Origin: a virus | Reading direction: 5' to 3' (one strand) | IMG/VR virus record: IMGVR_UViG_3300034121_001073 | Span: 1 to 33,825 of that record | DNA: 33,825 nucleotides | In this document: piece after piece, positions 28,397 through 33,812 of the stretch | How the letters are laid out: the number at the start of each line of letters is the position of its first letter | How positions within the stretch are numbered: the stretch's first letter is position 1 | Translations under genes and position numbers: made by a program | Notes under the pieces: generated by a model | What the model saw: only the letters and a program-made list of their open reading frames with translations | What the model was told of the DNA's origin: nothing | Databases searched by the model: none

Positions 28397-28811
28397 CTCC
28401 TTCGAGCTCCTCCCCGACGAGCGACTCCGTGACCTTGCCGACTCGTGCGGCCGGGGTCACTGGAGGACGACCAGGCCGAAGCCGGCATCGTCTTACTTCG
28501 TCCAGAGGAGCCGGGTGGAGAACTACCGGGTGGTGTCGTGGCTGATCCGGGACGTTTCGGACGTCATGGGCGACGACAGGACTCGGGCCGCGGTGTGGGC
28601 ATCGGTCTGCCAGGCCGTCGATCTGTGGCTCGAGGAGCCGGGGATCGGCAGTGAGCAGGAGCGGGCCCTCGCCGCGCTGAAGGTGGCCGGGAGGACTGAC
28701 GCGGAGCACGAGCTCGTCAAGTTCGTCAACCACCGCCAGGAAGGCGGGATGCGATCGTGGGACAAGTGGATGGGGCTCGTCGCCCCGTGGGAGGCAACGG
28801 ATGGCCGGTGA
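28389..28811 (+). CDS. Early protein upstream of the replication gene, function unknown
   Basis: A 140-residue protein that begins eight bases inside the GIY-YIG gene end. GC content returns to the phage norm at once, so the low-GC insert has a sharp right border. It looks helical: 'FELLPDERLRDLADSC', 'YRVVSWLIRDVSDVMG', 'ASVCQAVDLWLEEPG', 'EHELVKFVNHRQEGG'. Not recognised; its place before the replication protein suggests a replication partner. Confidence 0.65.
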   Translation: MPDSFELLPDERLRDLADSCGRGHWRTTRPKPASSYFVQRSRVENYRVVSWLIRDVSDVMGDDRTRAAVWASVCQAVDLWLEEPGIGSEQERALAALKVAGRTDAEHELVKFVNHRQEGGMRSWDKWMGLVAPWEATDGR

Positions 28812-29628
28812 CTGGCTGAAGATGCGACACGACCTGGCCGACGATCCGTCCGTCATTCGGGTGGCCGCCGACCTGTCGATCGACGAAGACCTGGTGATCG
28901 GGAAGCTGTTCCGCCTCTGGTCGTGGGCCGATCGCCACACGACGGAGGGGCAGGCTGAGGGGATCGGGATGGTCTGGGTGGATCGGTTGACCAGGTGCGA
29001 GGGATTCGGTGCCGCTCTCGAGAGGGCGGGCTGGCTGGAGAAAACTGCGGGGGGACTGCTGTTTCCCCGGTTTCACCGGCATTGCAGCGACACCGCGAAG
29101 GCCCGGGCCCTGGCTTCCGACCGGATGAAACGCTCCCGTTGCGCGCGCAGCGCAACAGAAGCGCAACCAGAGAAGAGGAGAGAGAGAGAAGAAGTTCCAC
29201 CACCACCACGCGAGGCTTCGCTGGAGGAGGCAGGGCAGGGAGACCCGTGGGCGGAGTTCCGCGATGCATGGAACAAGGGAGCCGGCATCCCCTGGACGCC
29301 TCCGAAGCCGCCGGACGGCTGGGAAGGCCGTGTTGCCGTCCCAGGATGGCTGGAGGATGCCCGGAAGGCCCTTGATCGGCTCGGGCGTTGCAAGTTCTTC
29401 GTGAAGCCCGTCGGGCTCCCCCAGTTCATTCACCCCCGGTTCGTTGGCCTTTGCAACGCCGGGCAGTACGACACCCCCAAGCCGGATCGGTCTGGCAAGG
29501 GCCGCGAGCCTGAGAAGCAGTCGGCAGAGGAATACGCGAAGCGGTGGGGCTCGACCGACCCAATTGTGGCCGAGTCCCGCAAGGCAATCGCAGAGAAGAA
29601 AAAGACGCTCCTCGAGGGACGGGCATGA
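28801..29628 (+). CDS. Replication initiation protein with an N-terminal winged helix
   Basis: A 275-residue protein of a known phage replication type: the N-terminus ('DWLKMRHDLADDPSVIRVAADLSIDEDLVIGKLFRLWSWADRH', 'WVDRLTRCEGFGAALERAGWL', 'FPRFHRHCSD') is a DnaD-like winged-helix region, followed by a charged linker and a C-terminal domain with 'WAEFRDAWNKG' and 'FVKPVGLPQFIHP'. GGAGG lies six bases before ATG 28801. No helicase or helicase loader gene is recognised, so it probably recruits the host helicase. The origin is likely in or near this gene but cannot be seen. Confidence 0.75.
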   Translation: MAGDWLKMRHDLADDPSVIRVAADLSIDEDLVIGKLFRLWSWADRHTTEGQAEGIGMVWVDRLTRCEGFGAALERAGWLEKTAGGLLFPRFHRHCSDTAKARALASDRMKRSRCARSATEAQPEKRREREEVPPPPREASLEEAGQGDPWAEFRDAWNKGAGIPWTPPKPPDGWEGRVAVPGWLEDARKALDRLGRCKFFVKPVGLPQFIHPRFVGLCNAGQYDTPKPDRSGKGREPEKQSAEEYAKRWGSTDPIVAESRKAIAEKKKTLLEGRA

Positions 29629-30630: not shown

Positions 30631-30648
30631 GGCCGCGGGAGGGGTGAG
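30631..30648 (+). repeat. Hairpin plus ribosome-binding cassette, copy 1
   Basis: The 18 bases GGCCGCGGGAGGGGTGAG occur here and at 31393-31410, each just before a gene start. A small GCGGC-N3-GCCGC hairpin precedes the GGGAGGGG in both copies. A shared translation-start cassette, possibly a site of past gene shuffling. Confidence 0.7.
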
Positions 30649-31409
30649 TGAAGTTCGGTTCCCTCTTCTGCGGCATCGGCGGTTTCGATCTCGGCCTAGA
30701 GCGGGCCGGGATGCAGTGTGCGTGGCAAGTGGAGATCGACCCGTATGCCCAAAAAGTCCTCGCCAAGCACTGGCCCGATGTCAGGAGACACGCCGATGTC
30801 TGCACGTTCCCCCCGGAAGAAGGCGACTGGGAAGTCGATGTCATCTGCGGAGGCTTCCCGTGCCAGGACATCAGCTACGCCGGGAAAGGGGCCGGGCTCG
30901 CCGGTGCAAGGTCCGGTCTTTGGTACGAGTTCGCTCGGATCATTGGCCAGCTTCGACCTCGATACGTCATCGTGGAAAACGTCTCAGCGTTGCTTACTCG
31001 AGGGATGGGTGAAGTACTCGGGACGCTGGCCTCGCTCGGGTATGACGCGGAGTGGCACGTTATCCCAGCTTCGGCCGTTGGTGCGCCGCACCGGCGGGAC
31101 CGCATCTGGATCGTTGCCTACGTTCCCGACGCCAACGGTGGGAGATTCAATCGGTGCAAGGAACGCGACATCATCCAGAAAGCCGGGAAGCGAACATCAC
31201 GGCGGGACAACGCTGACGGACTGGCTTTGGATAAACGAAGAGCGTGGGTTTGCGAACCCGCAATTCGTCGAGTGGCTCATGGGGTTCCCGCTCGGGTGGA
31301 CCGACTGCGCTGTCTCGGAAACGCCGTCGTCCCCCAAGTCGTCGAGTTGATCGGCCGGGCGATCATGGAGCGAGAAGCACAAACAGCGGCAGGGCCGCGG
31401 GAGGGGTGA
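30648..31409 (+). CDS. C5 cytosine DNA methyltransferase
   Basis: A 253-residue enzyme that methylates cytosine at C5 with AdoMet. Motif I 'FCGIGGFDLGLE', motif IV 'GGFPCQDIS' (C72 nucleophile), motif VI 'ENV' (E110), motif VIII 'HRRDRIW', and motif X 'LGNAVVPQV' are all present, so it looks active. The target-recognition stretch between motifs VIII and IX is short, about 50 residues. It starts at GTG 30648 after GGGAGGGG. No partner restriction enzyme is nearby; protection of phage DNA is the likely use. The +1 frame is also open for 210 codons. Confidence 0.92.
   Translation: MKFGSLFCGIGGFDLGLERAGMQCAWQVEIDPYAQKVLAKHWPDVRRHADVCTFPPEEGDWEVDVICGGFPCQDISYAGKGAGLAGARSGLWYEFARIIGQLRPRYVIVENVSALLTRGMGEVLGTLASLGYDAEWHVIPASAVGAPHRRDRIWIVAYVPDANGGRFNRCKERDIIQKAGKRTSRRDNADGLALDKRRAWVCEPAIRRVAHGVPARVDRLRCLGNAVVPQVVELIGRAIMEREAQTAAGPREG
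30718..31350 (+). CDS. Second open frame (+1) inside the methyltransferase gene, motif-rich
   Basis: A 210-codon frame from GTG 30718 (ATG 30745 also possible) with no stop, in +1 relative to the methyltransferase. Its product contains 'TSSWKTSQ', 'YSGRWPRSGMTRSG', 'LPTFPTPT' and 'NPQFVEWLMGFPLGWTD', in the order of a recurring phage protein family I know from memory. These motifs map onto methyltransferase motifs VI, VIII and X. It may be a true overlapping gene or a by-product of enzyme constraint. No separate ribosome binding site is clear. Confidence 0.35.
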   Translation: MRGKWRSTRMPKKSSPSTGPMSGDTPMSARSPRKKATGKSMSSAEASRARTSATPGKGPGSPVQGPVFGTSSLGSLASFDLDTSSWKTSQRCLLEGWVKYSGRWPRSGMTRSGTLSQLRPLVRRTGGTASGSLPTFPTPTVGDSIGARNATSSRKPGSEHHGGTTLTDWLWINEERGFANPQFVEWLMGFPLGWTDCAVSETPSSPKSSS

Positions 31410-32095: not shown

Positions 32096-32515
32096 ATGCC
32101 ATGGACCACGCTCGAGATCACCGGCCGACCTGTCCCCCAGCCGCGCCACCGCGCGACCCGGGGCGGCAGGATGTACCTCCCGAGCTCGGCACCGATCCGA
32201 GCGTTCAAACGGCAGGTGGTCACCGCGGCGGTGAAGCGGTTCACCAAGCCGCTCACCGGCCCGGTGGTGGTCGAGATAACCGCCATGTTCCAGCGGCCAC
32301 CGTCCCATCGGACAGGCCGCGGTGAGCTCCGGAAGGGAGCCCCGGTGTTCCCAGGCCGCAACCTCGGGGACGTCGACAACCTCGCCAAAGGGGCCCTCGA
32401 CGCGCTGACCGGCATCGCCTGGGACGACGACAGCCAGGTGGTCGACCTCCGAGTGGCAAAGCAGTGGGCCAACATCGACCGGATGACGATCGCGATTTCC
32501 CCCCGGGAGGTCTGA
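32096..32515 (+). CDS. rusA: RusA-like Holliday junction resolvase
   Basis: A 139-residue protein with the RusA pattern: 'ITGRPVPQPRHRATRGGRMY' near the start and the metal-binding block 'GDVDNLAKGALDALTGIAWDDDSQVVDL', which holds the conserved acidic residues. RusA cuts four-way DNA junctions made during recombination and replication, pairing here with the Sak4-SSB system. There is no obvious Shine-Dalgarno before ATG 32096. Confidence 0.92.
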   Translation: MPWTTLEITGRPVPQPRHRATRGGRMYLPSSAPIRAFKRQVVTAAVKRFTKPLTGPVVVEITAMFQRPPSHRTGRGELRKGAPVFPGRNLGDVDNLAKGALDALTGIAWDDDSQVVDLRVAKQWANIDRMTIAISPREV

Positions 32516-32815: not shown

Positions 32816-33147
32816 ACCATGGCCAGACCATGGCAGACGCATCCCAGACTCCCGGCGCGGTCGACCTCGGCTTCCGCCGTGGCGACGAGTTCCGCCGCGT
32901 GTTGACGGTCAACCTCAACCTCACGGGCTACACGCTCACATGGGAGATCTACGGTCTCCGGGATGACGGCGTGAAGCTCTCGGGCTCCCTGTCGTTCTCG
33001 ACACCGCCCCACGCTGTCGCCCTGATCATCACCGAGGCCCAGACCGGGACGCTGGCCGTCGGCACCTACGGTTTCCGCGCGGTGTGGATCGCCACGGGGT
33101 CGATCCAGCGGACCTTCCTTGAGGGCATCTGTGAGGTGACCCGGTGA
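32812..33147 (+). CDS. Fibre-operon beta protein, Ig-like
   Basis: A 111-residue, all-beta protein with '[37 protein letters not shown]' and '[32 protein letters not shown]', a pattern known from small fibre-associated or Ig-like virion proteins. GTG 32812 overlaps the previous stop (GTGA); ATG 32830 is the alternative. The next gene is collagen-like, so it is likely part of the fibre complex, perhaps its attachment domain. Confidence 0.7.
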
Positions 33148-33812
33148 CCGACATCAGCGTCTCCATCGTCGACGACCCGGTCTCGGTCTCCGTGAGCAAC
33201 GCCCCCGGCCCCTCCGGGGCTTCGTCGTTCTTCAAGGGCATGGCCGCCGCCTGGCCGCCAACGGCAACGCCAACCGCCGGCTGGATCTACACGCTCCCTG
33301 ATCCCGTCCCTGCCGGCACACCGGCCGGATTCCTGGCCGGTTACGGGGCACAGTGGGACGGGCTGGCATGGGTGAACATTGGCCCTGTGCGGGGCCCTGC
33401 GGGGCCCGCCGGCCCCCAGGGTGTAGCCGGCCCCGCCGGCTCCCCTGGTGTGGCGGGACCGCAGGGACCAGCCGGCAACACTGGAGCAGCTGGCCCAGCC
33501 GGTGTGGCCGGTAGTGCTGGCCCGGCCGGCGCTCAAGGCCCCCAAGGGATCCAGGGGCCAGCGGGTGTGGCCGGGGCCGCTGGTGCCACCGGCCCGACTG
33601 GTCCGGCCGGAGCTTCTGCGCCTTCATACTCGCGCCGATTCGCGTGGTCATCGCCCTACTCCTACTCTGGCCGCGCCGCCGCCAGTTCCGCTGCCTCCGC
33701 ATCGGTGTGGACGATCAAGCGATCGCAGGTTTCGGCCGCCGGTGCGATCACCGCAACGCTCACGGCGACAAATGTCGCATGGGATGACTACGCCACCGCC
33801 TCTTATTCGTGA
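33144..33812 (+). CDS. Collagen-like tail fibre protein
   Basis: A 222-residue protein starting at GTG 33144 (GTGA overlap). Residues about 1-79 form an N-terminal beta head. About 26 uninterrupted Gly-X-Y triplets follow (residues 80-157, rich in GPA, GPQ and GVA), which should make a trimeric collagen helix. The C-terminal 65 residues are a Ser/Ala/Tyr/Thr-rich tip for receptor contact or trimer registration. Such proteins are typical phage side or tip fibres. The stop overlaps the start of the 98-residue gene across the circle join. Confidence 0.88.
33381..33614 (+). repeat. Collagen Gly-X-Y coding repeat
   Basis: Nine-base units encoding Gly-X-Y repeat about 26 times in frame. Such GC-rich repeats are prone to length change by slippage, which would alter fibre length. 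Confidence 0.85.

Follow-up and report, generated by a model that had tools for sequence, protein, structure and literature searches.

The C5-cytosine methyltransferase gene of the virus described here raises the question whether its open +1 frame encodes a second protein and, if so, to which function this protein belongs. The window, i.e. the whole stretch of 33,825 nt that was analysed, corresponds to the IMG/VR virus record IMGVR_UViG_3300034121_001073. Frame 0 of the gene (alpha, 30648-31409, on the plus strand like all features of the gene given below) encodes 253 amino acids with motifs I-VIII and X. It matched TIGR00675 (6.2e-42, above the cut-off of this model) and PF00145 (1.5e-49), the latter over profile positions 1-169 of 324 only, and the catalytic PCQ and ENV are present. 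Motif IV (GGFPCQD) is located at 30849-30869, motif VIII (APHRRDRIWIV) at 31083-31115 and motif X (LGNAVVPQ) at 31314-31337. The +1 frame is free of stop codons from 30700 to 31347 (216 codons) and ends with a stop codon at 31348-31350; the 210 open codons reported in a first-pass annotation of the sequence are obtained by counting from the first GTG at 30718. The ordered +1 motifs named in this annotation were all found at the places given there. TSSWKTSQ (30964-30987) overlies VENV of alpha motif VI (30972-30983), SGMTRSG, as part of RSGMTRSG (31033-31056), overlies GYDAEWH (31038-31058), and LPTFPTPT (31114-31137) begins a variable region with PTP, a type of motif which occurs 0-6 times per protein among the relatives. 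A further string, EWLMGFPLGWTD, lies within 31255-31305 immediately upstream of LGNAVVPQ. Elsewhere in the window, neighbouring genes gave matches to a RusA-like resolvase (32096-32515; 3e-28), a replication initiation protein (28801-29628; 1e-42) and tail fibre proteins (33144-33812; 3e-23).

The first-pass annotation had assigned the +1 protein to a recurring phage family. This family exists, since the +1 product matched PHROG 1008 (E 2.2e-27, profile positions 7-153 of 329; 1.2e-26 for the shorter product beta introduced below), a family labelled 'DNA methyltransferase' which is also matched by the second gene of Eagle (3e-96). The best PHROG match of frame 0 is PHROG 363 (1.8e-87), and thus the products of the two frames fall into different families. 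PHROG 1008 is kept apart from the family of the catalytic half, and the overlap is unrecorded in the library. Searches with beta against Pfam, NCBIfam and PDB sequences gave no meaningful match.

A +1 frame of this kind may be a by-product, held open and family-like by the constraint on the methyltransferase or by base composition alone, and untranslated; the constraint on the enzyme had been named in the first-pass annotation as the alternative to dual coding. Synonymous codons were shuffled within each gene, with both codon usage and the protein of frame 0 left unchanged. For the window alone, which is GC-rich, an equally long +1 opening was obtained in 6.7% of the shuffles (p 0.067), a value that is not significant and compatible with a by-product. 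In the same shuffles, a motif-IX-like string was retained in 1% and the SSWK...SG string in 2%. The counts for the family as a whole reject this explanation. In 253 related methyltransferases, part of which had been found by using the +1 protein, 752 stops were detected in the +1 frame versus 1618 expected by shuffling (ratio 0.46), and the 32 genes found by the methyltransferase protein alone contained 127 versus 226. By contrast, 251 other genes on the same contigs had 3111 +1 stops versus 3113 expected (ratio 1.00), and in their third frame the methyltransferase genes had 3198 versus 3210. The depletion is therefore specific to the +1 frame and to methyltransferase genes. Members with a low GC3 retain the +1 opening as well (e.g. 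L114, GC3 0.38). Among distant pairs, the excess of protein similarity over the shuffled expectation was larger for the +1 than for the +2 frame, and shuffling was expected to keep the +1 motif IX in only 0.2 of 55 loci; as these loci had been preselected for this motif, the informative figures here are this expectation and the count for SSWK.

The distribution of substitutions points in the same direction. Within the catalytic part, pairs of relatives differed at codon positions 1, 2 and 3 by 0.228, 0.150 and 0.429 per codon, which is the pattern of a frame-0 gene. In the interval between motifs VIII and IX, it is the +1 codon positions that show such a pattern (0.173, 0.150 and 0.343). This interval varies as a +1 gene, and hence the third positions of frame 0 are the least variable ones there, which is not expected of a by-product. 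The synonymous constraint, whose analysis had been proposed along with that of the stops, was most pronounced at 4-fold sites under the SSWKTSQ...SGMTRSG core. While 4-fold divergence was close to 0.5 for most of the initial part of the catalytic portion and 0.41 from 20 codons to one codon upstream of PCQ, it dropped to 0.36-0.20 at 20 to 70 codons past PCQ, where the +1 frame reads SLAxxDPxTSSWKTSQ...SGMTRSG; TSSWKTSQ of the window lies within this strongest constraint. Pairs and loci share a phylogeny and are non-independent, so that the counts given here overstate the number of independent events. Both frames are under selection, and the +1 frame is a real coding sequence. With stop depletion, synonymous constraint and codon shuffles all against it, a by-product is an extremely improbable explanation, and the proposed dual coding of the gene has gained support.

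What the +1 product may contribute becomes apparent from the position of motif IX. To our knowledge, every C5 methyltransferase needs this motif. The C-terminal part of the +1 product, LNPxFVEWLMGFPxGWTD, corresponds in form to motif IX (in the window NPQFVEWLMGFPLGWTD at 31255-31305), and the motif-IX pattern is absent from frame 0 of the window and of 272 nested relatives. Eighty viral loci were sampled on the catalytic domain alone and motif IX was sought irrespective of the limits of the frame-0 ORF. With a strict pattern, which missed motifs obvious by eye in L304, L325, L334, L337 and L327, it was located in the +1 frame in 71 loci, in frame 0 in three (L317, L347 and L358) and in both frames in none; the remaining six loci were cut, rearranged or without a pattern match. 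In the 71 loci, the recognition region contained no +1 stop versus 85.8 expected, and the +1 frame was open there in all 71 versus 23.3 expected. Frame 0 was likewise open through this region towards motif X in 70 loci versus 8.9 expected, the sole exception (L359) being of the split kind described below. Over the whole set, motif IX was found in the +1 frame, in frame 0 and in both in 272, 10 and 0 cases, respectively. In L317 and L358, which carry the motif in frame 0, the downstream +1 frame is full of stops. From the comparison of the 80 loci and from these two genes it follows that both frames are maintained and that retention of a frame and the location of motif IX go together. The single-chain enzyme L317 also supports the assignment of the motif, since its in-frame counterpart aligns without gaps with residues 270-318 of M.HhaI (motifs IX-X), an alignment that is weak in isolation, yet adjoins a strong catalytic match. 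The predicted model of L317 (residues 1-342) superimposed on M.HhaI with a Z score of 26.7 and an rmsd of 1.8 over 218 aligned residues.

The first-pass annotation had suggested that the +1 family may have arisen by overprinting, i.e. that the ORF encodes an independent protein which is selected by itself and whose function is unrelated to methylation, and the absence of free-standing homologues had been named beforehand as a result against it. Among the matches listed from viral, genome and phage collections, the +1 family lies inside a methyltransferase in the exact +1 relation in 281 of 281 loci, and no free-standing homologue was detected among them. Moreover, the +1 frame carries motif IX precisely where frame 0 is without it. 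Three architectures were found. The window and most of its relatives have the nested form. In split actinophage enzymes (Eagle gp78/gp77 and Euratis gp33/gp34), the +1 frame continues into motif X, which thus shares its frame with the C-terminal half of the +1 product. Gudmit, Rabbitrun, L082, L142, L317 and L358 have a single chain. That the selection on the +1 frame is genuine agrees with overprinting, and so does the persistence of its N-terminal half in single-chain relatives: in the actinobacterial L004, L082, L142 and L358, this half with its SSWK-like and SGMTR-like core has remained open despite the location of motif IX in frame 0. The N-terminal half may thus have a role that is unexplained by motif IX. 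Taken together, we regard an independent overprinted protein as improbable. Hence, the dual-coded frame and the phage family of the first-pass annotation were confirmed but not the separate overprinted family, as the +1 product carries the methyltransferase's own motif IX. Because frame 0 lacks this motif, the most fitting interpretation of the +1 product is that of a second subunit belonging to the methyltransferase.

Another way of joining the two frames would be programmed frameshifting, by which ribosomes pass from alpha into the +1 frame and make one continuous polypeptide that includes the +1 recognition region together with motif IX. In the split relatives Eagle and Euratis, one shift would suffice. 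In nested genes, however, motif X is in frame 0 and two opposite shifts would be required. Frame 0 is itself held open across the recognition region, and +1 ATGs preceded by a Shine-Dalgarno sequence are enriched 30 to 11 codons upstream of PCQ (92 versus 33.5 expected), which also speaks against shifting ribosomes. Programmed frameshifting is therefore very improbable. In the window, a Shine-Dalgarno-like AGGAG at 30783-30787 is located eight bases upstream of an ATG at 30796, and for this reason the latter was chosen as the probable start of the nested gene (beta, 30796-31350 including the stop codon), which gives a product of 184 amino acids. There is no start position common to all members.

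The best explanation of the locus is an enzyme similar to M.EcoHK31I, and we consider it likely that the gene encodes a two-subunit C5-cytosine methyltransferase whose second subunit is nested in the first. Alpha would provide the SAM-binding and catalytic domain with motifs I-VIII, followed by a fast-evolving linker and motif X. Beta, probably initiated internally, would comprise the SSWKTSQ/SGMTRSG core, the variable region containing PTP and motif IX, and both chains would assemble into one methyltransferase. As the +1 frame is the one in which the variable region evolves, the sequence comparisons point to a recognition function of beta, which would then supply the small DNA-recognition domain. 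Separate translation of beta, a heterodimer, its recognition site and its activity are what we infer from these data.

The small subunit of M.EcoHK31I (YGGCCR), about 176 amino acids in length, is encoded within the gene of the large one, in a different frame. According to a published account (PMC3404938, citing Lee 1995), motifs I-VIII and X of this enzyme are in the large polypeptide and motif IX is in the smaller one, both of which are needed. Compared by description only, this is the arrangement of the window, but M.EcoHK31I is a bacterial restriction-modification enzyme whereas the gene of the window is viral. Its recognition domain was predicted in the large subunit (PMC3404938), while here this region evolves in the frame of beta, and this difference counts against the two-subunit reading. 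M.AquI is a naturally split C5 methyltransferase, and its layout is shared by Eagle gp78/gp77 and Euratis gp33/gp34, whose second polypeptide carries both motif IX and motif X. Motif X of M.AquI is in the small subunit, unlike in the window, where it is in frame 0. A protein encoded out of frame inside phage methylases is also known from the ShiLan domain (PMC11855218). However, this HNH endonuclease is a homing endonuclease encoded by a mobile insertion, whereas beta is a putative enzyme subunit. Literature searches, with most subscription journals outside their scope, gave no description of this nested frame in phages. The precedent is already known, but its extent in phages and the recognition region in beta appear to be undescribed in the literature searched.

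Further observations count against the two-subunit reading. The AlphaFold model of beta alone was poor (pLDDT 61, pTM 0.26) and a Foldseek search with it revealed no PDB match. The open N-terminal +1 half of single-chain forms belongs here too, as does a different +1 peptide, SLSxILExxxPxKYYLSxKACxGILRRAExRGKxLP, since its presence in canonical enzymes indicates that +1 coding need not mean a motif IX subunit. This peptide is found repeatedly over the start of the variable region in phage C5 methyltransferases of the canonical, single-chain type. Carriers are L120 (2468-3475), L121 (37-1074) and L347 (2489-3928), and furthermore L362 (dmt of the P1-like phage RCS47), L363, L364, L365, L367 and L368, near 1501-1670. 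In the six annotated phage loci examined that have a methyltransferase frame, it was located in the +1 frame (openness p 0.003-0.28 per gene), and it was matched by 127 phage records.

It is conceivable, if rather doubtful, that specificity is encoded in this large phage family in a frame overlapping the catalytic subunit, that the N-terminal half of beta either is indispensable as a recognition subunit or serves an additional function of its own, and that dual coding is general in phage C5 methyltransferases. Specificity written over the catalytic subunit would mean that recognition and catalysis evolve on shared nucleotides. With a second +1 peptide in canonical phage methyltransferases, including the P1-like Dmt, dual coding would be a general habit of these genes.

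Hundreds of phages keep both frames, of which annotations usually show only one. In KX853510.1 (L006, 1516-2196) and PP395640.1 (L003, 392-652), it is the +1 frame that has been annotated as CDS, under the label 'conserved hypothetical' or 'hypothetical protein', and the methyltransferase frame is unannotated. If the two-subunit reading is true, hundreds of phage genes annotated either as one methyltransferase or, in the alternative frame, as a 'hypothetical protein' would be two-subunit enzymes whose second half has been missed, and no activity would be expected from a recoded version of just the annotated ORF. The locus would represent a widespread pair of overlapping genes in DNA phages whose products are both parts of one enzyme, and its natural split and single-chain relatives would make it possible to test how gene overlaps originate and are resolved.
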